Part shown: piece after piece, positions 8,996 to 61,292 of the stretch | Numbering within the stretch: position 1 is the stretch's first letter | Layout of the letters: every line of letters starts with the position of its first letter | Source of the DNA: Spiroplasma endosymbiont of Polydrusus cervinus | GTDB lineage: Bacteria > Bacillota_I > Bacilli_A > Mycoplasmatales > Mycoplasmataceae | Direction: 5' to 3' | Assembly (NCBI RefSeq): GCF_964019755.1 | Contig: NZ_OZ026469.1 | Span: 124,001 to 188,000 of the forward strand | DNA length: 64,000 bases | The notes under the pieces: model-generated | Told to the model about the DNA's origin: nothing | The model's database searches: none | What the model saw: only the letters and a program-made list of their open reading frames with translations | Position numbers and translations under genes: made by a program

Positions 8996-9192
8996 ATTCT
9001 CTATCATCCCTTTTACTTATAATTTCACTATTAATATCTTATATTATAACGGTTTTATTTACAATTATTTACTAAATTATTTCTAATTACTATAATATGT
9101 AAATTGTAAATACCAAATCATAAAAAGTTAATTATTAATTTAGTTAACTTTTTTTAAGTTAATTTTTAAATTAATTATAGGAGGTTGAAATT

Positions 9193-9302
9193 ATGCAAAT
9201 AAATCACTATTTAATTTTGTGGTCTTAGTGAAAAAGTATGGTAAAGATATTGTTATTAATACTGTCAATAAGATTGTAAATGATATTGAAATTAAAAAGT
9301 AA
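9193..9302 (+). pseudogene. Small IS-borne ORF, frameshifted copy
   Basis: Begins MQINHYLIL after AGGAGGTTGAAATT. In the intact copy elsewhere (52050-52160) the product is 36 aa. Here one base is missing after TTTTGTGGTC, so the frame stops at once. The downstream part still encodes the VKKYGKDIVINTVNKI tail in another frame. Function unknown. Confidence 0.55.
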
Positions 9303-9350
9303 AGAATAAATTATCCCGCGTAATTTACAATTTTCAATTAACTTTCAATT

Positions 9351-9485
9351 ACTTCCAACTGGTGGTTGTTGTGGTTTGGGTTCTGGTTTATTACTCCCCG
9401 TTTTCACTATTATTTGGTTTTTCGCAACTAATTAATGATATTGTACTTGTTGCTTTTAATCCGATTGCCCCTAAAATATTTAAAA
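9351..9485 (-). pseudogene. Lipoprotein leader fragment inside IS30 element, antisense
   Basis: The minus strand reads ILGAIGLTATSTTSLISC followed by EKPNNSEN, a typical spiroplasma lipoprotein signal peptide with lipobox LISC. The start codon and first few residues (normally MKKLLS) are replaced by the arm of the inverted repeat next to the transposase. The frame is lost after the Asn/Gly-rich stretch. This looks like a captured 5-prime end of a lipoprotein gene. Confidence 0.6.
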
Positions 9486-9538
9486 TGTTATAATTATTGC
9501 AAATAAATTATAACATTTTAAATATTTTAGGAGGTAAA
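9471..9538. repeat. Inverted repeat at transposase start
   Basis: CCTAAAATATTTAAAATG on the left mirrors CATTTTAAATATTTTAGG on the right, around a short AT-rich loop. The right arm overlaps the ribosome binding site AGGAGG of the transposase gene, so the hairpin could mask translation initiation. The same structure recurs at 19318-19380, 40122-40187 and 51817-51882. Confidence 0.7.
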
Positions 9539-9540
9539 GT

Positions 9541-10529
9541 GTGAAAAAATATGAAAGATTAGATTTTAATGAAAGAGTAAATTTGGAAAAATTAAAAGAT
9601 AATGAATTATTTAAAAAGGAAAATGGAATAATTAATATTCGAAAAATTGCTAAGCAAATGAATAGAGATTATAGAGCTATTTGGCAAGAGTTAAATATGT
9701 TTGATAATATTAATGATTATAATGCTGCAAAAGCACAAAAAATACATGATAAAAATAAAAAACAATGTCGTAAATATTCAATGTTAAATTCACAAGAATT
9801 AAGTCATTTTTCTAATGAATATAATAATTTTGGTCGTTCGCCACAAAATATTATTACTTCGTATGAATTACAATATAATGTAAAATTTGGTGTATGTTTT
9901 AAAACAATGTATAAATATATTAAATTAGGTTATTTTAATTTAAAAAAAGAAATGTTATATTTTAAAAATAAAAAAAGAAAAACAAAAAATGGGGAACAAA
10001 ATGATAATCGTGGAAAATTACTTAATATTAGAGATTATAAGCAATTTTAAAATGATTATGGAAATGATTTAAGTTTTAGTGGAATTTGAGAAATGGATAC
10101 TCTTGATTGTGGTAATTTTTATTTGTTAGTTTTAGTAAATCGTAAATCAAAAATACTTTTTTATCATATTTTATTTAGTAAAAAGGCAAGTATTGTATTA
10201 ACAATTTTAATGAAAATGATTAAATAAATTGGTATTAGTAAATTTAGTTGTATTTTAACCGATAGAGGAAAAGAATTTTATAGATGAAAAACAATAGAAA
10301 AACATTTTAAAATAAGAGTTTATTTTTGTGATCCTGGTAAACTTCGCCAGAAAGCATTAGTAGAAAGAATAAATAAGAGATATAAGGCGTTGATTGACTC
10401 AAAATGAGCCATTAATTAATATTCGTAGTAGATTAAAATCTATTTTAGATATAATTAAATACCACAATTAGACCTTGCTTGGAAAATTTTACATCAAGAC
10501 AATATTTTAAAAAAATTTTTTTAAATTAA
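9541..10529 (+). pseudogene. IS30-family transposase, decayed copy 1
   Basis: Encodes a DDE transposase that would be about 330 aa. The N-terminal helix-turn-helix region is IAKQMNRDYRAIWQELN. The catalytic core shows DTLDC, LTDRGKEF and the ALVERINR glutamate region, the layout of IS30 enzymes, including those known from Spiroplasma plectrovirus SpV1. The start here is GTG where copy 2 has ATG. Two nonsense codons (after RDYKQF and after MKMIK) and one frameshift near ERINK break it. The inactivating changes differ from those of copy 2, so both decayed independently. Confidence 0.85.
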
Positions 10530-10726
10530 ATTAGTGTTTGTTAAGATTAGTAAAATTTATTTTTTTGTTGTGTTTAATTTTATAATTTTAAAAATAAATA
10601 TTAAAAACAATATTTTTAATTTAATATTTTTTGTGATTATTGTTTTTTATTTTTAATTTGTTATAATGTTATTAACTTTTTATGATTTAGTTTTACAGTA
10701 TACAATAGTAAAAGAGGGGTGAAGCA

Positions 10727-11522: not shown

Positions 11523-12626
11523 TTGGAACGATACCCAAAAAGTAGACATAAAATAAAAAACATTTGGTATTAATATTCTACACGATATGTTTGTTTAAAA
11601 TTCATTCATTTATGAATTAAATTAATCATATCGTGTTTTGTTTTGATAAATAGTTTCTTTCTTTAAAATTGAATGAAAACTTTCTATAACTGCATTATCT
11701 AAAGGAGTACCTTTTCTTGACATTGATATACGTATTCCAAGATTTTCACAAAATTTATTATATTTAGTGGTTCTATATTGAATTCCTTGATCAGAATGTA
11801 ATATTAAACCATTTAATTTTTTATTTTTTACAGCTTTTAAAAGAGTATTCATTACTAGCTCTGTATTGTTTTTAAAACTAATTTCATATGCAATAATTCT
11901 TTTATCATATAAATCAATAATAGTACTTAAATAAAGAAAATATTTTTGTTTATAAATTTTAATATAAGTAATATCAGTAACTCATTTTTGATTAATTTTT
12001 TCAGCTCTAAAATTTCTTTGTAATAAATTATATTTAGCATCTAATAAATTTTCATAACTACGATCAGTATTTTTTCTGTGAATATATTTTACTCAATTAG
12101 CTCTAATATTATAATTTTTAATTAATTTTAATAATTTTTTATGATTAATAATTCATCTAACTTCCTTCTCAATAGCAATTTTTAGTCTCCTATACCCGTA
12201 ACATTTCTTTTTTTTCAAAAATTTTTTAATACTATTTATTTCTTTAAAATCATTTTTATTATTAAATCTTTGTTTATAATAATTAGCAAGATTAACATTA
12301 AGAATTTTACATAATACTTTTATTGAGTATTTATTTTTATATAAATTAATAAAATTTATTTTATATTTTGTTGTTGTCTTGAGAAGGAAAGAAACTTTTT
12401 TAGAATTTCATTTTCTAATCTTAAATATTCAAGCTCACTATAATTTTCCTTATGAATTTTTCTTTCAAAATTTAAATTTTTATTTTTATTTTTATAAAGT
12501 CACTGACTAATAGTATTGCGAGAAATATTATATTTTTCAGCTAAATAACTATAACTACATCCTTCTTTTAGATGTTCATTAACAATTTTAATAATTAATT
12601 CTTTACTTCTATGAATTTTTTTCCAT
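11523..12626 (-). mobile_element. IS3-family element (second type), 5-prime truncated
   Basis: The outer end at 11523 reads TGGAACGATACCCAAAAAGT and recurs at 35634. The transposase genes lie on the minus strand. The opposite end is missing: at 12627 the sequence passes straight into an 80 bp palindrome made of IS30 left tips. An 11 bp deletion near 11644, compared with the fragment at 35634-35832, alters the end of orfB. Confidence 0.75.
11622..12625 (-). pseudogene. IS3-family transposase orfA/orfB, truncated
   Basis: orfA (about 12342-12625) has a helix-turn-helix (YSYLAEKYNISRNTISQWLY) and lacks its start. It joins orfB through the A6G heptamer CTAAAAAAG, the usual IS3 site for programmed -1 frameshifting. 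orfB carries the DDE set: WVTDITYI, ILHSDQGIQY and NAVIESFHSILKKE, with LDxAKY-type IS150-group features. The orfB tail is shifted by the 11 bp deletion and ends early (NKTRYD). Two defects, no N-terminus and an altered C-terminus, make activity unlikely. Confidence 0.82.
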
Positions 12627-12706
12627 TGTAAATTGTAAATACTAAATCATAAAAAGTTAACTAAATCAATAGTTAACTTTTTATGATTTAGTATTTACAA
12701 TTTACA
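12627..12706. repeat. 80 bp palindrome of two IS30 left tips
   Basis: Two 36 bp arms (TGTAAATTGTAAATACT... and its complement) around an 8 nt loop. The arms match perfectly. Both carry a T where every other left tip in the window has C (ATACTAAA versus ATACCAAA), so the change is shared by the two arms. It sits at the point where the IS3 element at 11523 breaks off. Confidence 0.8.
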
Positions 12707-12862: not shown

Positions 12863-14221
12863 TTAATTAAAGCCCATTCCGCTTAAACCACCCATCCCAG
12901 GAATATTTGGCATTCGCCCAGATTTAATTTGACGAGCAATTTCATCAACTTGTTTTTTTGTTTTTTCAAATTGATTAATTAATTCATTATATTCTTTCTC
13001 AGTTCGCCCTGATCCTTTTACAATGCGGTTTTTACGAGATAAATGCTTTAAGAGGCGGGGTTCGCGCCGTTCTTTCACAGTCATTGAAGATAGTAATACT
13101 TCAGTTACTTTTAATTTGCGTTCAGCATCAGCAATCTTTTCATCACTTAACTTTGGCATTCCGGGTAGTAATTTCATAACCCCCCCCATTTTCCCCATTT
13201 TTGAAATTTGGTGCATTTGGTTTAACAAGTCTTGCATATCAAACTGCCCCATCATCATCCGGTTCATTGTTTTTTTCATATCGCGTTCATCTAAAACGTC
13301 TTTTGCTTTTTCAACTAAGGTTTGAACATCACCCATTCCAAGAATCCGGTCCGCCATTCTATCAGGATAAAAGATTTGTAAATTGCTCATTCCTTCACCA
13401 GTTCCAATAAAAGTAATTGGTAATTTCGTTAAATGCGTAATTGATAAGGCTGCCCCCCCCCGAGCATCACCATCTAACTTCGTTACAATTACGCCGGTTA
13501 ATTTTAATAGCTGGTTAAATTCAGTTGTAATATTAATAATGTCTTGTCCAGTCATTCCATCAACAACTAATAAGATTTCATCGGGAGTAATATGATTTTT
13601 AATTTCTTTTAATTCTTGCATTAATTCAGCATCAATATGTAAGCGCCCAGCAGTATCAATTAAAATAACATCGTTTTTCTTTGCTTTGCCATATGCAATT
13701 GCTTCTTGTGCCGTAGCAATGGGATTTTGAGTTCCCTGTTCAAAAACTTCAATATTTAAATTTTTTCCAATAGTTTTTAACTGGTCAATCGCCGCTGGCC
13801 GGTAAATATCACAAGCAACTAATAACGGTTTTTTATGATATTTCTTTTCCACTAACTTCGCAATTTTTCCAGTTGTTGTTGTTTTCCCACTTCCTTGTAA
13901 TCCAACCATCATTACAATTGTTGGTTTTGAAGCAAAAGATAATTCTTTCGTGGTTTTCCCAAAAATATTAACTAATTCTTCATGCACAATTTTAACCATC
14001 ATCTGTGATGCATTTAATCCGTCTAAAATATATTCCCCACGAGTTTTAGCTTCAACAGCTTTAATAAAATCTTTCACAACTTCATTATTAACATCCGCTT
14101 CTAACAACGCTAAGCGAATTTCACGCATTGTTTCAGTAATAGCATCGGTTGTTAAAGTTGATTTTTTCATATTTTTCTCGATTGATTTCTTCAATCGATT
14201 TGCTAAAAAATCTCCAATCAT
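12863..14221 (-). CDS. ffh: Signal recognition particle protein Ffh
   Basis: GTPase subunit of SRP; binds signal peptides and 4.5S RNA and docks with FtsY. 452 aa, full length. The N domain (residues 1-95) is followed by the G domain with P-loop GLQGSGKTTTT (107-117), VACDIYRPAAIDQL, DTAGRLHID and TKLDGDARGG. The C-terminal M domain is methionine-rich (MNRMMMGQFDMQDLLNQM) and ends with GRMPNIPGMGGLSGMGFN. No TGA codon is needed. AAAGGAG is 6 nt before the ATG. The gene starts 19 bp from a 189 bp palindrome whose outer tip reads TTTTACAGTATACA toward it. Confidence 0.97.
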   Translation of the reverse strand: MIGDFLANRLKKSIEKNMKKSTLTTDAITETMREIRLALLEADVNNEVVKDFIKAVEAKTRGEYILDGLNASQMMVKIVHEELVNIFGKTTKELSFASKPTIVMMVGLQGSGKTTTTGKIAKLVEKKYHKKPLLVACDIYRPAAIDQLKTIGKNLNIEVFEQGTQNPIATAQEAIAYGKAKKNDVILIDTAGRLHIDAELMQELKEIKNHITPDEILLVVDGMTGQDIINITTEFNQLLKLTGVIVTKLDGDARGGAALSITHLTKLPITFIGTGEGMSNLQIFYPDRMADRILGMGDVQTLVEKAKDVLDERDMKKTMNRMMMGQFDMQDLLNQMHQISKMGKMGGVMKLLPGMPKLSDEKIADAERKLKVTEVLLSSMTVKERREPRLLKHLSRKNRIVKGSGRTEKEYNELINQFEKTKKQVDEIARQIKSGRMPNIPGMGGLSGMGFN

Positions 14222-14240
14222 ATCTTTTTCTCCTTTATTT

Positions 14241-14429
14241 TGTATACTGTAAAACTAAATCATAAAAAGTTAATAAAATTATAACAAATTAAAAATAAAA
14301 AACAATAATCACAAAAAATATTAAATTAAAAATGCCATTTTTAATTTAATATTTTTTGTGATTATTGTTTTTTATTTTTAATTTGTTATAATTTTATTAA
14401 CTTTTTATGATTTAGTTTTACAGTATACA
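14241..14429. repeat. 189 bp perfect palindrome (IS30 right ends), MITE-like
   Basis: Two 93 bp arms, each equal to the IS30 right end, separated by only 3 nt (GCC). I find no mismatch between the arms. It holds no gene. It lies exactly between the divergent starts of ffh (19 bp away) and the gene at 14487 (57 bp away), so both genes have the same outward tip in front of them. It could be a non-autonomous element mobilised by the IS30 transposase, a bidirectional promoter, or both. Confidence 0.85.
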
Positions 14430-14486
14430 AAATAAAGGATATAATTAATATATAGTTCTAAATTTGGTTTGAAGTGGGTGCTTATA

Positions 14487-16268
14487 ATGCGAAGTGATGA
14501 TATTAAAATTTTAAAAATTAAACCAATTAAAAGAAGTGTTCTTAAAGACCAAAATAATGATCAACAAGACCTTTTTTTAAGCAATAAAAAAGCAACTTTT
14601 TTGCAAAATGAAAATAGTCATTTTTTTAAAAATAATTATTATTCATCATTTGCTTTGCCTCAAAATCAAATTGCTGACCAAAATAATGATTTAAATGCTG
14701 TAATACAACAAGCTCGTAACATAACTTTAAATTTAGATAATCCTGATGCTTTAAATATTTTACATAATCAAACGGAGAAATTAAAACAAGAAAAGATAAA
14801 TTTTCATCAGCGCTTAAATAAGATTAAATCAACTTTTGATGAAAAAGATCCTTTGTATAATGAAAAATATTTGCATGAACCCCCAGTAATAATAAAAAAG
14901 ATTAATTTAATAAATTTTAATAATAAGAATAATACTGTTGTTGGGAATGACCCTGCGGAAAAAAAAATTGAACGAGTAGTTTTGGAAGAACAAGCTCGTG
15001 CTGTTGCTCAGAAAATAATGCAAAAGGATCAGCAAAAAAAGAGTCAGTCATTAACTAATCCTGTTGATAATAATCAAAGAAGAGCATCAAAGCCTCTTTT
15101 TCCAAAACATTTGTCTAATTTTTCTTCATCAAAAGCAACACAAAAAAAAGATGTTTTTTTTACCCAGAGTTATAATAAGCCCCCCTTACCAAAAGCAATT
15201 ATTTTGCCAAAAGAAGAAGATAAAATATCATCTAAGTTATTAAAAGGGGCAGGTGAATTAAATCAAGATAATAGTTTTGCTGTTACGGGGAAAGAAATGT
15301 TAAAAGCAAAGCAAGACATTAATTTTCTTATGCCTTCAGAACAAAATAGACAATTGTATGATGAGACTGAGACAATGGAATGAGATATCACAAAGCGTCC
15401 CAATTTAGGTGTAGAGCAGACAACTAATAAATATTATCATCAGGAAGAAAAGAAACCCCAACAAGCAGAAACTTTCCAAATGTTACAAGGAAAGGAAAAT
15501 TATCAAAAAGAAATTCTGCGAGCAGTAGAACTTGAAGAAATAGATGGAACTTATCAGATTGATAATTTTTATGCGAAGTTATTTAATTCTAATATTAATG
15601 AACATGCATTAAACCAAAAAGGAAAAATTAAAACTAAGAAAATTAGGGGAAAAAAGAAAAAACAGCTTAATCCTAATGAGGAAAAGTTAGCAAAGAAACA
15701 AGCAAAATTTTCTGTGCAAGCAACAACAATATTTAATAATAATTATCAAGTTCAACAATTATCAAATGGTCGCCAGCGAATTACTAAAATTAATAAAAAT
15801 AACATTATTAAGTGACGATATCCAATTATTTTAGCCGCCCGTTTGATGGCGATTATTGGTTTAATTGCATTATGCAGTACTTTTTTATTATTTAATAATT
15901 GAGTTAATAATTCAGCATTAGATTTATATAATTTTATTGAAGTTAATTTTGGGAAACTTGATTTTATTGCTGTTAAGCACCATTATTTTTTCATAAATCG
16001 AATTTTTATGTTAACTTTAATTGGCATTTATGCGGTGATTGGTATTTTTCCATTTTGTTTGGTATCGAATTTTAAGATGCAACTTTATTGCTTTTTACCA
16101 TTAAATTTAATATTTTTGTGTGGGGTGATTGGTATCGCTTTATATGGGTATTTTTTTATGAATATTAACTTTAATTGAATTAACAATATTCTGCAAATTA
16201 TTAGTTATAGTTTTTTACTGTTAGCAAATCTTTTAATGGTGATCGGAATTTTTAGTTGTATACTGTAA
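14487..16268 (+). CDS. Unknown large low-complexity protein with C-terminal membrane domain
   Basis: Not recognised. About 593 aa if started at ATG 14487 (AAGTGGGTG may serve as ribosome binding site; in-frame TTG 14469 and GTG 14478 are alternatives). Residues 1-430 are hydrophilic, rich in N, Q, K and E and probably disordered, with no signal peptide. The last 150 residues hold four hydrophobic segments (ILAARLMAIIGLIAL, FMLTLIGIYAVIGIF, FCGVIG-type stretch, SYSFLLLANLLMVIGI). Two TGA codons are Trp. The IS30 right tip starts at 16257 and supplies the last residues (CIL) and the TAA, so the native C-terminus is lost. Architecture resembles the protein at 37654 in reverse order, without evident similarity. 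Confidence 0.75.
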
Positions 16269-19224: not shown

Positions 19225-19751
19225 GTGAGTCTATAAAAAAATTCATTATCTTTTAATTTTTCCAAATTTACTCTTTCATTAAAATCTAATCTTTCATATT
19301 TTTTCATACTTTACCTCCTAAAATATTTAAAATGCTATAATTATTGTACATAAATTATAACATTTTAAATATTTTAGGAGTAATCGGATTAACAGCAACA
19401 AGTACAACATCATTAATTAGTTGCGAAAAACCAAATAATAGTGAAAACGGGGGGGTAATAAACCAGAACCCAAACCACAACAACCACCAGTTGGAAGTAA
19501 TTGAAAGTTAATTGAAGATTGTAAATTAGGCGGGATAATTTATTCTTTATTTTTTAATTTCAATATCATTTGCAATCTTATTGACAGTATTAATAACAAT
19601 ATCTTTACCATGCTTTTTACTAACGACCGCAAAATTAAATATTGCTTTATTTGCATAATTTCAACCTCCTATAATTAATTTAAAAATTAACTTAAAAAAA
19701 GTTAACTAAATTAATAGTTAACTTTTTATGATTTGGTATTTACAATTTACA
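19225..19751 (-). mobile_element. IS30-family fragment, left half with leader fragment and small ORF
   Basis: On the minus strand: left tip (19751), small ORF start (ATG at 19656, frameshifted), inverted repeat, and the first 27 or so codons of the transposase (MKKYERLDFNERVNLEKL). On the plus strand 19365-19509 encodes the lipoprotein-leader fragment ILGVIGLTATSTTSLISC, with a run of seven G after GAAAAC that shifts the frame. Confidence 0.75.
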
Positions 19752-42655: not shown

Positions 42656-44072
42656 TGTATACTGTAAAAATAAATCATAAAAATCTAATAAAATTATAAC
42701 AAATTAAAAATAAAAAACAATAATTACAAAAAATATTAAATTAAAAATATCATTTTTAGACTGCACCCTGTTTAGTAAGTATTAATAAAAAGGTTTACAA
42801 ACTTTCATTTATTATATATTTTTCTTTTTGGTTTGAATATCATTTATTTCATTTTTTAACATCATTAATATATTTATTATGAGATTTATAATTTTTATTA
42901 TGGATTGTTCCTTTTTTAAGTAATGAATGAAAACTTTCAATAATAATGTTGTCTGCACAATGATAATTTTTACCCATTGAAATTATAATTTTGTTATCTA
43001 AACATTTACTATTGTAATCTTTAGATGTATATTGATATTCGTGATCTGAATGAATTATTATTTTATTTAAATCTTTTTTTATTTTTTTAATTTTATTAAT
43101 TGCATCATTTAAATTATCAATTACAAGTTTGTTATTATTAAATTTTGATCATTTTACATCAATAATTTCTTTAGTATATCCATCAAGTATTGTTGATTGA
43201 TAATGTTTTTTACCATTTCAAATTAAATAAGTTACATCAGTAAATAAAATTGAAAATCTTTCTTTAATATCATTAAAATTACGATTTACTAAATCAGGAT
43301 ATTTAATTATATTTTTATTTCTATTTTGTTTTATTAATATTTTTCTACGCATACGCTTTACATATTCAGCTTGAATATTATTTTATTTCATAATTCGCAA
43401 TACTTTCTTAGCATTATAAACAATGCCATAATCTTCTTTTAAATATTTGGTAATTCGACGATAACCAAATTGTTTTAAATTTTCTTCATAGACTTTTACA
43501 ATATTTTTTAATGATTCGCTATCCTTACCATTACTTGAATAATTTTTATATTTATCTCAATAACTACGCTTTAAATCTGTTATATCAAGTAATAAATTTA
43601 GTGGATATTTATTAATGTTTTCTTTGATAAAAGATACAATTTTTCTTTTATTTAATTGTAAAAGTCATGAAGCTTTTTAGTAATTCATACCTAACTTTGT
43701 AATAGTTTAAATCTCTTTTTTCAAATGATTCTTGTGGACCTTTATTGGTGTTTAAAATTCCTTTCTTAAAATTTTCATACCATGAAGCAACAGTTTTTTA
43801 TTAATTTGATATTTTTTTGCAATAAAACTTATACTATTATTTTTAACCTCTTGTACTATCATTTTTCGAAAATATGCTGTATATTTATTAAATTTTTGTC
43901 CTTTTCTTGCCATATAAAAATGCACCTCCTTTAAAGTTTAGCAAAGGCTTTTTTCTTTACTTACTTTTTTGGGTGCAGTCTATTTAATTTAATATTTTTT
44001 GTAATTATTGTTTTTTATTTTTAATTTGTTATAATTTTATTAGATTTTTATGATTTATTTTTACAGTATACA
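42656..44072. repeat. IS30 right-end palindrome split by IS3 copy F
   Basis: Left arm 42656-42756, right arm 43983-44072. Together they form a palindrome of about 190 bp like that at 14241, with arms that match perfectly over 90 bp. Relative to the other right ends both arms share four private changes (GTAAAAAT for GTAAAACT; AAATCTAA for AAAGTTAA; AATTAC for AATCAC). Confidence 0.85.
42757..43982 (-). mobile_element. IS3-family element (TAGACTGCACCC type), copy F
   Basis: Both ends present, inserted near the centre of the palindrome. Defective: one base lost in the orfA T run (near 43800), one base lost in the A6G slip site (AGCTTTTTAG near 43674) and other point changes. The host palindrome must therefore predate this insertion and have kept matching arms since. 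Confidence 0.87.
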
Positions 44073-57664: not shown

Positions 57665-58558
57665 ATGACAAAGTTTATTGTAAAAGATATTGTTGATAAA
57701 TTTTGCTATGAGGTTTTAGCAGGGAAAGATGGCATTAATCGGGCTGTTAAAATTTATGGCCTTAACCGGCCAGGGTTAGAATTAGCTGGCTTTGATTTTG
57801 AAAAAAATAATATTAATCGTCGGGTAATTTTATTATCAAATAAAGAACAATTATTTGTAAACACCTTAAGTGAAAAAGTAAAAAGAGAACGGTATGAATA
57901 TATTTTAAATGAAAACATTCCGATGATTATTTTAACGGAAAAGTTTACGGATAAAATATTATTAGAAATTGCGGAAAAACATAGTTGTCCCGTTGCCCGT
58001 GCTAGCAATATTACAACAAGTCGTTTATACCAACTAATCTTAGAATTTTTTGATGAATATTTTGCTCCAGTAACAGAAGAGCATGCTTCGTTAATTAATG
58101 TTTTTGGGAAAGGAATTTTATTAAGAGGAAAATCTGGGATTGGAAAATCAGAAATGACATTGGAATTAATTAAAAAGAATCATTTATTTGTTGGGGATGA
58201 TCGTATTATTATTCAGCAGCGAAATAATCGTTTATATGGGCAATCCCATGAAATGTTAAAAAATTTAATTGAAGTTCGTGGCTTAGGAATTTTAGATTTA
58301 AGTAAAATTTATGGTTTACAAGTGTTATTAGATGAAACAAAAATTGATTTAGTGATTGAATTAATTCATTTAGACGATGAACAATATAAATCAATTGATC
58401 GGTTAGGGACTGAATATAAATATATTAAAATTTTAGATACAAAAATCCCAATTATTACGATTCCAGTTACCTATGGTCGGAATGTTAGTGAATTGGTTGA
58501 GACGGCAGTTTCAAAATTGAAGTTAGATGAAGCGGGAATTTCTTCCCTAAAAAAATAG
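57665..58558 (+). CDS. hprK: HPr kinase/phosphorylase, stop supplied by IS3
   Basis: Phosphorylates HPr at serine to tune sugar uptake. 297 aa. Walker A GKGILLRGKSGIGKSEM, the DDR motif FVGDDRIII and the signature LIEVRGLGILDLSKIYGL are present; the N-terminal DRTGG-like domain precedes. AGGGAG lies upstream of the ATG. The stop TAG is the first three bases of IS3 copy H (TAGACTGCACCC), right after ISSLKK, so the original C-terminus (usually 10-20 residues longer) is lost. The core is intact. Normally lgt and trxB follow; they are not seen here, probably displaced by the IS events. Confidence 0.92.
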   Translation: MTKFIVKDIVDKFCYEVLAGKDGINRAVKIYGLNRPGLELAGFDFEKNNINRRVILLSNKEQLFVNTLSEKVKRERYEYILNENIPMIILTEKFTDKILLEIAEKHSCPVARASNITTSRLYQLILEFFDEYFAPVTEEHASLINVFGKGILLRGKSGIGKSEMTLELIKKNHLFVGDDRIIIQQRNNRLYGQSHEMLKNLIEVRGLGILDLSKIYGLQVLLDETKIDLVIELIHLDDEQYKSIDRLGTEYKYIKILDTKIPIITIPVTYGRNVSELVETAVSKLKLDEAGISSLKK

Positions 58559-59784
58559 ACTGCACCCAAAAGAGTAAGTAAAGAAAAAAAGTCTTTGCTA
58601 AACTTTAAAGGAGGTGTATTTTTATATGGCAAGAAAAGGACAAAAATTTAATAAATATACAGCATATTTTCGAAAAATGATAGTACAAGAGGTTAAAAAT
58701 AATAGTATAAGTTTTATTGCAAAAAAATATCAAATTAATAAAAAAACTGTTGCTTCATGGTATGAAAATTTTAAGAAAGGAATTTTAAACACCAATAAAG
58801 GTCCAAAAGAATCATTTGAAAAAAGAGATTTAAACTATTACAAAGTTAGGTATGAATTACTAAAAAAGCTTCATGACTTTTACAATTAAATAAAAGAAAA
58901 ATTGTATCTTTTATCAAAGAAAACATTAATAAATATCCACTAAATTTATTACTTGATATAACAGATTTAAAGCGTAGTTATTGAGATAAATATAAAAATT
59001 ATTCAAGTAATGGTAAGGATAGCGAATTATTAAAAAATATTGTAAAAGTCTATGAAGAAAATTTAAAACAATTTGGTTATCGTCGAATTACCAAATATTT
59101 AAAAGAAGATTATGGCATTGTTTATAATGCTAAGAAAGTATTGCGAATTATGAAAGAAAATAATATTCAAGCTGAATATGTAAAGCGTATGCGTAGAAAA
59201 ATATTAATAAAACAAAATAGAAATAAAAATATAATTAAATATCCTGATTTAGTAAATCGTAATTTTAATGATATTAAAGAAAGATTTTCAATTTTATTTA
59301 CTGATGTAACTTATTTAATTTGAAATGGTAAAAAACATTATCAATCAACAATACTTGATGGATATACTAAAGAAATTATTGATGTAAAATGATCAAAATT
59401 TAATAATAACAAACTTGTAATTGATAATTTAAATGATGCAATTAATAAAATTAAAAAAATAAAAAAAGATTTAAATAAAATAATAATTCATTCAGATCAC
59501 GGATATCAATATACATCTAAAGATTACAATAGTAAATGTTTAGATAACAAAATTATAATTTCAATGGGTAAAAATTATCATTGTGCAGACAACATTATTA
59601 TTGAAAGTTTTCATTCATTACTTAAAAAAGGAACAATCCATAATAAAAATTATAAATCTCATAATGAATATATTAATGATGTTAAAAAATGAAATAAATG
59701 ATATTCAAACCAAAAAGAAAAATATATAATAAATGAAAGTTTGTAAACCTTTTTATTAATACTTACTAAACAGGGTGCAGTCTA
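58556..59784 (+). mobile_element. IS3-family element (TAGACTGCACCC type), copy H, complete
   Basis: 1229 bp, both ends exact (TAGACTGCACCC at 58556, GGGTGCAGTCTA at 59784). The only copy in plus orientation. A further right end follows (59785-59836). Confidence 0.92.
58626..59746 (+). CDS. IS3-family transposase orfA-orfB, copy H
   Basis: orfA 58626-58889 (MARKGQKFNKYTAYFRKM...LHDFYN) has the helix-turn-helix FIAKKYQINKKTVASWY. The heptamer AAAAAAG at 58862-58868 is the programmed -1 site; orfB reads on from there to TAA at 59746. orfB has VLRIMKENNIQAEYVKRMRR, LFTDVTYLIW, HSDHGYQY and ADNIIIESFHSLLKK (DDE with K seven after E). Both frames are open with TGA as Trp. GGAGG before orfA is close to GTG 58614, which may be an alternative start. 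With copy D the best candidate for an active element. Confidence 0.9.
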
Positions 59785-61108: not shown

Positions 61109-61292
61109 TGTATACTGTAAAACTAAATCATAAAAAGTTAATAAGATTATAACAAATTAAAAATAAAAAACAATAATCACAAAAAATATTAAATTAAAAA
61201 TATTGTTCTTAATATTTTTTGTGATTATTGTTTTTTATTTTTAATTTGTTATAATCTTATTAACTTTTTATGATTTAGTTTTACAGTATACA
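61109..61292. repeat. 184 bp palindrome of IS30 right ends
   Basis: Two 83 bp arms around an 18 nt loop (AATTAAAAATATTGTTCT). The arms match perfectly and share a change found in neither of the other palindromes (AATAAGATTATAAC for AATAAAATTATAAC). The right tip ends 10 bp before the next ATG. Confidence 0.85.

Follow-up and report, generated by a model that had tools for sequence, protein, structure and literature searches.

The window considered here, a stretch of 64,000 nucleotides from the genome of the Spiroplasma endosymbiont of Polydrusus cervinus (positions 124,001 to 188,000 of its contig), carries a long palindrome between two divergently oriented genes, ffh and a gene that begins at 14487. 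The features of this locus, in window coordinates, are as follows:

12863-14221, minus strand: ffh (SRP54 protein), which in relatives has its own promoter upstream, with rny ahead of it in at least eight
14231-14439, no strand: perfect palindrome with arms 14231-14334 and 14336-14439 and the centre, C, at 14335
14231-14240, minus strand: native ffh-side flank, AAATAAAGGA, part of the Shine-Dalgarno region of ffh, which in relatives is of the AAAATAAAGGAG type
14241-14429, no strand: RR element, in which two right ends (TGTATACTGTAAAACTAAATC...) of an SpV1/IS30-type element lie head to head
14278-14305, minus strand: predicted outward promoter TTGTTT-N16-TATAAT of the left arm, directed towards ffh
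14365-14392, plus strand: the same promoter-like TTGTTT-N16-TATAAT in the right arm, directed towards the 14487 gene
14417-14445, plus strand: predicted hybrid promoter of the 14487 gene, made of the tip TTTACA, 17 nt and a native TATAAT (11 of 12 consensus matches)
14430-14439, plus strand: inverted copy of the ffh-side flank (AAATAAAGGA), where relatives show TTTTAGGA
14487-16268, plus strand: gene for a conserved 593-aa protein of unknown function with a hydrophobic C-terminus (table 4 code)

An earlier reading made from the letters alone (the sequence-only reading) had placed at 14241-14429 a palindrome with 93-nt arms, a 3-nt loop and no mismatch, which is exactly the mobile-element part of the structure but understates the whole, since a further 10 palindromic nucleotides flank it on each side. 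Its extent was set by aligning 14226-14444 to its own reverse complement, in which just five positions fail to match (14228, 14230, 14440 and 14442, plus 14335 at the centre), leaving perfect 104-nt arms about a 1-nt centre; in a second comparison, the arms extend to 109 nt at 98% identity. As a single strand, the palindrome folds with -100.6 kcal/mol, compared to an average of -20.6 for shuffled sequences (z = -27.5, with 0 of 200 shuffles as good), which is far beyond chance. Its tip lies 19 nt from the ATG of ffh and 57 nt from that of the 14487 gene, in agreement with the earlier distances, and the hydrophobic C-terminus of the 14487 product is probably membrane-spanning, in line with its description as a membrane protein. 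What the single-locus view missed is that this palindrome is one of dozens, is built of element ends, and sits at a rearrangement junction.

The palindrome is the "RR" form of a ~1.6 kb SpV1-like, IS30-type element, of which more than 100 copies, most of them broken, are present in the genome. Searching the whole genome (1.12 Mb, in which the window is C1:124001-188000) gave dozens of matches, and the tip TTTACAGTATACA occurs 260 times at no more than one mismatch, compared to 11 times for a reversed control. The parent element is ~1602 bp long, with left (L) end TGTAAATTGTAAATACC.. and right (R) end TGTATACTGTAAAACTAAATC.., and its consensus transposase ORF matches Pfam rve (2.5e-11). At the DNA level the element aligns to SpV1-R8A2B over ORF3, which is annotated as a transposase of the IS30 family, and over the sequence around it (26% query coverage, 76% identity); related pieces are carried by S. 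kunkelii and S. citri plasmids. The element thus has in common with the SpV1-type plectrovirus (Vespertiliovirus R8A2B) an ORF3-related IS30-like transposase with an rve core, but it is only ~1.6 kb long, truncated, and bounded by L and R ends of its own, and the near-full copies that we aligned are decayed. Of 18 L-R pairs, many of them nested or truncated, 4 have a target duplication of at least 2 nt. A literature search joining Spiroplasma plectroviruses with an IS30 transposase gave no match. Further pieces of the family in the window are:

9098-10705, plus strand: near full-length decayed parent copy, with the L end at 9098, the R end at 10705, and a transposase pseudogene from 9541
12627-12706, no strand: LL palindrome downstream of ffh, two left ends with 37-nt arms and a 6-nt loop
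35544-35633, plus strand: single R end, beside a gene whose neighbour in relatives is the right-hand flank of the LL palindrome at genome position 881337
42656-44072, no strand: RR whose arms are separated by ~1.2 kb of IS-like DNA, this insert having the ends gactgcaccctg..., as in IS3-family insertion sequences
61109-61292, no strand: second RR of the window, 10 bp before the start of the 61303 gene, with flanks CTCC/GGAG

We also considered, and rejected, the possibility that the arms are part of the abundant IS3-family insertion sequence at 58556-59784, which is a separate element of 1229 bp that merely inserts nearby. This insertion sequence encodes an rve-type orfB (201 aa) and an orfA of 91 aa; about 30 further near-full copies occur in our sample, at ~99% identity and sometimes as tandem pairs, often inside or beside the SpV1-derived element.

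About 38 palindromes of the RR and LL types were examined within ~627 kb of the 1.12 Mb genome, window included. A first set of stretches was picked for containing copies, and is hence biased, while a second set of 172 kb was spaced regardless of copies; in this unbiased sample, we find 6 long palindromes in 172 kb here, compared to 3 in 1.82 Mb of 13 congeners, and the small loci of relatives, family matches included, yielded no perfect palindrome. RR palindromes consist of two right ends and usually span 189 bp, LL palindromes consist of two left ends and span 80 bp, and each turns at a small hairpin already found in the parent end, which for the RR at 14241-14429 is the right end's natural hairpin TTAAAAA..TTTTTAA.

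Long palindromes derived from the ends of other elements were seen as well, at 443737-443817 and 507895-507967 of the genome, at 19427-19507 of its segment L241, and at 11987-12109 of segment L200 in the congener G008, with end types that include an IS3-family-like terminus (TAGACTGCACCC..) and a GGCGTCCTGTACGATGAACC.. repeat. One G008 palindrome and one palindrome of the present genome resemble the end of another insertion sequence, and the process that forms palindromes may therefore extend beyond the SpV1-derived element. Separately, the palindrome at genome positions 417939-418154 (107-nt arms, 3 mismatches) derives from a transposase start region and turns at the hairpin upstream of that start, and is thus an inverted duplication inside the element.

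Comparison with relatives places most of the palindromes that could be assessed at breakpoints. Five of six informative palindromes, the ffh one included, join two loci that are separate in relatives: at 531641, 641209, 881337 and 436412, the left and right flanks map to different places, whereas the site of 829646 is contiguous. Six palindromes were queried for the empty site, of which 185109 gave no information, its left flank consisting of repeated DNA. In the case of ffh, a motif test finds rny immediately upstream in at least 8 of 13 congeners, and in all 13 the DNA upstream of ffh is non-element and has a TATAAT-like promoter, while in the present genome ffh has upstream of it the palindrome and then the 14487 gene, which sits elsewhere in relatives. 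The search for an empty site that had been suggested thus finds relatives in which the element is absent, ffh has its native upstream sequence, and the two flanks lie at separate loci; a palindrome with diverged arms in relatives, which would have spoken against the sequence-only reading, is not seen at ffh, where the relatives have no element. We note in passing that S. poulsonii MSRO_BK (G009) has a second, split copy of ffh at 1524339-1525693 besides an intact one.

The ends left at the split ancestral sites are informative in themselves, as rny now carries an L end and ffh carries RR, and among the other partner flanks there are R ends at two LL partners and an LL palindrome at one RR partner. 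This is consistent with one original L-R insertion per ancestral site. A further RR palindrome lies at genome positions 458038-458226, 15 bp before the rny start codon, such that rny and ffh, neighbours in relatives, have each gained an upstream RR palindrome.

The two arms of a palindrome agree with each other in a manner that is specific to the copy. Across 15 RR and 13 LL copies, 38 departures from the consensus are shared by the two arms of a copy and 11 are confined to one arm (28 and 11, respectively, for RR, and 10 and 0 for LL), and by alignment column the one-arm variants lie at or near the centre, save for one at the arm tip, which is a trimming point. Shuffling arm partners (20,000 shuffles) never reaches the observed agreement, giving a mean of 58 one-arm variants and a minimum of 34 for RR, where 11 are observed, and a mean of 17 for LL, where there are none. 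The outer 34 nt are identical in 20 of 24 close RR pairs, compared to 14% of between-copy pairs, with the other 4 showing 1-4 arm differences, and arm differences are greater in RR pairs separated by over 220 bp (p = 0.0014). In the RR at 42656-44072, 85 nt of the arm are identical, private variants included. Agreement within copies combined with variation between them indicates that arm identity belongs to each copy, and not merely to the family.

Changes shared by both arms of one copy are also what is expected of a quasipalindrome corrected by template switching, a process that is able to create and to perfect hairpin stems (PMC8794818). As in quasipalindrome template switching in E. coli and in RNA-stem evolution (PMC7202029, PMC8794818), one arm appears to be copied from the other at a hairpin and residual mismatches lie near the loop; the present case differs in that the arms are 37-104 nt long, dozens of loci are involved in one natural genome, the palindromes sit at rearrangement junctions, and the palindromy spills over into the flanks.

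This spill-over is measurable, in that complementarity past the terminus averages 2.05 nt, compared to 0.58 in permutation, and reaches at least 4 nt in 10 cases, compared to 1.0. Flank palindromy of at least 2 nt is found in 0 of 18 L-R pairs and in 25 of 56 LL/RR pairs (p = 0.0003), and as it does not exceed 1 nt in the 18 L-R pairs, a preference for palindromic targets can be rejected as the origin of the inverted flanks. At the ffh palindrome, the non-ffh side reads TTTTAGGATATAAT in relatives and AAATAAAGGATATAAT here, so that six bases look copied, in a run ending in the AGGA that is common to both flanks; the AAATAA at 14430-14439 thus appears, from this comparison, not to be native. 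Comparable one-sided flanks are present at 531641, 641209, 881337, 436412 and 829646, each judged on few bases, and calls of native and copied flanks rest in general on a few AT-rich bases.

In bacteria, long perfect palindromes are generally deemed lethal or soon lost, as SbcCD cuts hairpins. Profile searches of 14 genomes, with positive controls, detected SbcD and MutS in none of the 14, and did not detect RecA in this genome, G004 or G008. TIGR00619 and TIGR02012, our test for SbcD and RecA, had no match in this genome while the controls were positive, and SbcC (TIGR00618) likewise had no match here and marginal matches in four congeners. By profile search, this genome thus appears SbcCD- and RecA-deficient, a background in which E. 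coli undergoes palindrome-dependent inverted rearrangements via hairpins (PMC3315005). The two cases have the same missing proteins and hairpin-based rearrangement in common, but in E. coli a 246-bp interrupted palindrome leads to inverted chromosome duplications, whereas here the ends of natural elements join different loci. Extensive rearrangement has also been reported for S. poulsonii, with recA truncated in one strain (PMC8208695). We note, however, that loss of RecA as the sole cause is unsupported, as G004 and G008, also without detectable RecA, have 0 and 2 palindromes, respectively, in 140 kb.

Taking these observations together, we consider it probable that the palindrome is a junction of two R ends of a degenerate SpV1-derived, IS30-type element, which were joined, copied onto one another through a hairpin, tolerated, and put to use as a two-way promoter. 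An L-R element would once have lain between rny and ffh, as is still visible in part from rny being followed by an L end and ffh by an R end. The ffh-side R end would then have joined head to head with R-end sequence beside the 14487 gene, with the product turning at the small natural hairpin ~93 nt inside R, and L ends would join alike at their own natural hairpin, giving the LL junctions observed. Hairpin-templated synthesis would copy one arm from the other, either at birth or repeatedly later, and at the ffh palindrome would have run 6 nt past the element to end in the shared AGGA. The palindromes would be tolerated without SbcCD and, in this species, without RecA, losses that may have a causal role.

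Alternatively, each palindrome could be one recent event, in which a broken end within an element folds at the natural hairpin, copies itself out to the terminus and a few bases past it, and joins elsewhere by microhomology, so that all palindromes are recent and none is maintained. We regard this as unlikely, although it is the strongest of the alternatives, as a single act would cover identical arms, turning points at natural hairpins, breakpoints and spill-over, and as a similar hairpin pathway operates in E. coli without SbcCD and RecA (PMC3315005). However, spill-over lengths are not random but concentrated within 0-2 nt beyond the terminus, which marks the terminus as special, and nearly all arm mutations (38 both-arm, 11 one-arm) would have to predate 28 separate junctions. 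The sequence-only reading had posed the right question in asking whether the palindrome is recent or something maintains it; on the basis of arm co-variation and flank spill-over, we favour active copying, without considering it proven, and very recent formation still competes. Hairpin-templated copying would, on our reading, have made the arms identical, and probably keeps them so.

The splitting of the ancestral sites bears on a further possibility, namely that the RR and LL forms are MITEs, each transposing as a unit, which only afterwards recombined among themselves. Precise termini, many copies, and symmetrical ends that a transposase could recognise are all in keeping with this, and the palindromes share with REP, BIME, REPIN and MITE repeats that they are dispersed, palindromic and mostly intergenic, but their perfect arms are far longer and like ends are joined symmetrically. 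We found no evidence that RR or LL move as a unit. Instead of contiguous empty sites with target duplications, the flanks are split in 5 of 6 informative cases and duplications are not consistent. That single ancestral sites are now split into L and RR, or RR and LL, is not expected from MITE insertion, and the opposite element ends on the partner flanks argue against RR and LL having arrived as transposing units. Later recombination would, in addition, have to occur where RecA is undetectable, and movement alone leaves the arm identity of each copy unexplained, making this account improbable. An artefact of assembly or polishing, which might be suspected since long palindromes are difficult to sequence, is more improbable still, considering that about 38 cases differ in their flanks and carry private variants in the two arms alike, that polishing would draw copies to the family consensus rather than to private variants, and that the arms remain identical around ~1.2 kb of IS-like DNA in one palindrome.

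Returning to the junction of two R ends, its predicted consequence for the adjoining genes follows from sequence and position. Outward TTGTTT-N16-TATAAT motifs are found in both arms of 14 of 17 RR copies, albeit with a weak -35 (TTGTTT), and R ends face 41 gene starts and 34 gene ends, compared to 3 and 25 for L ends (p = 4e-5), with 28 of the gene starts that R ends face lying at 10-46 bp. The ffh promoter is most likely within the palindrome, given that the native upstream region has been lost and the new neighbour is divergent, and the TTGTTT-N16-TATAAT of the arm is likely the replacement; each half probably provides its adjoining gene with an outward promoter, such that the two-way promoter would have replaced the native ffh promoter. 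The hybrid promoter of the 14487 gene has no counterpart elsewhere among the 150 R ends, and is thus a local accident rather than a family feature. The motifs in both arms, the hybrid promoter and the spacing of R ends from gene starts lend support, at the sequence level, to the earlier suggestion that the palindrome gives both genes the same outward tip. Selection for a symmetrical regulatory site or an RNA hairpin, which the clustering of R ends at gene starts might suggest, is the least probable reason for the identity of the arms, as LL arms are identical too although L ends rarely face gene starts, and as arm variants are spread along the arm.

In a broader sense, hairpin template switching could have become a routine means of shaping a natural chromosome that lacks SbcCD, RecA and MutS, joining like ends of dead elements into perfect palindromes where rearrangements occur, correcting arms over evolutionary time, spilling into flanks, and installing two-way promoters ahead of essential genes such as ffh and rny, a reading that we put forward tentatively and at somewhat short of an even chance. 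A small natural genome with dozens of long palindromes at its joints, whose arms seem to evolve in concert, allows the birth and persistence of palindromes to be tested directly in the absence of these proteins, and the tests of arm identity and flank spill-over used here are applicable to other genomes without recA or sbcCD. It also shows how an essential gene may come to have its promoter replaced by the remains of a dead element.
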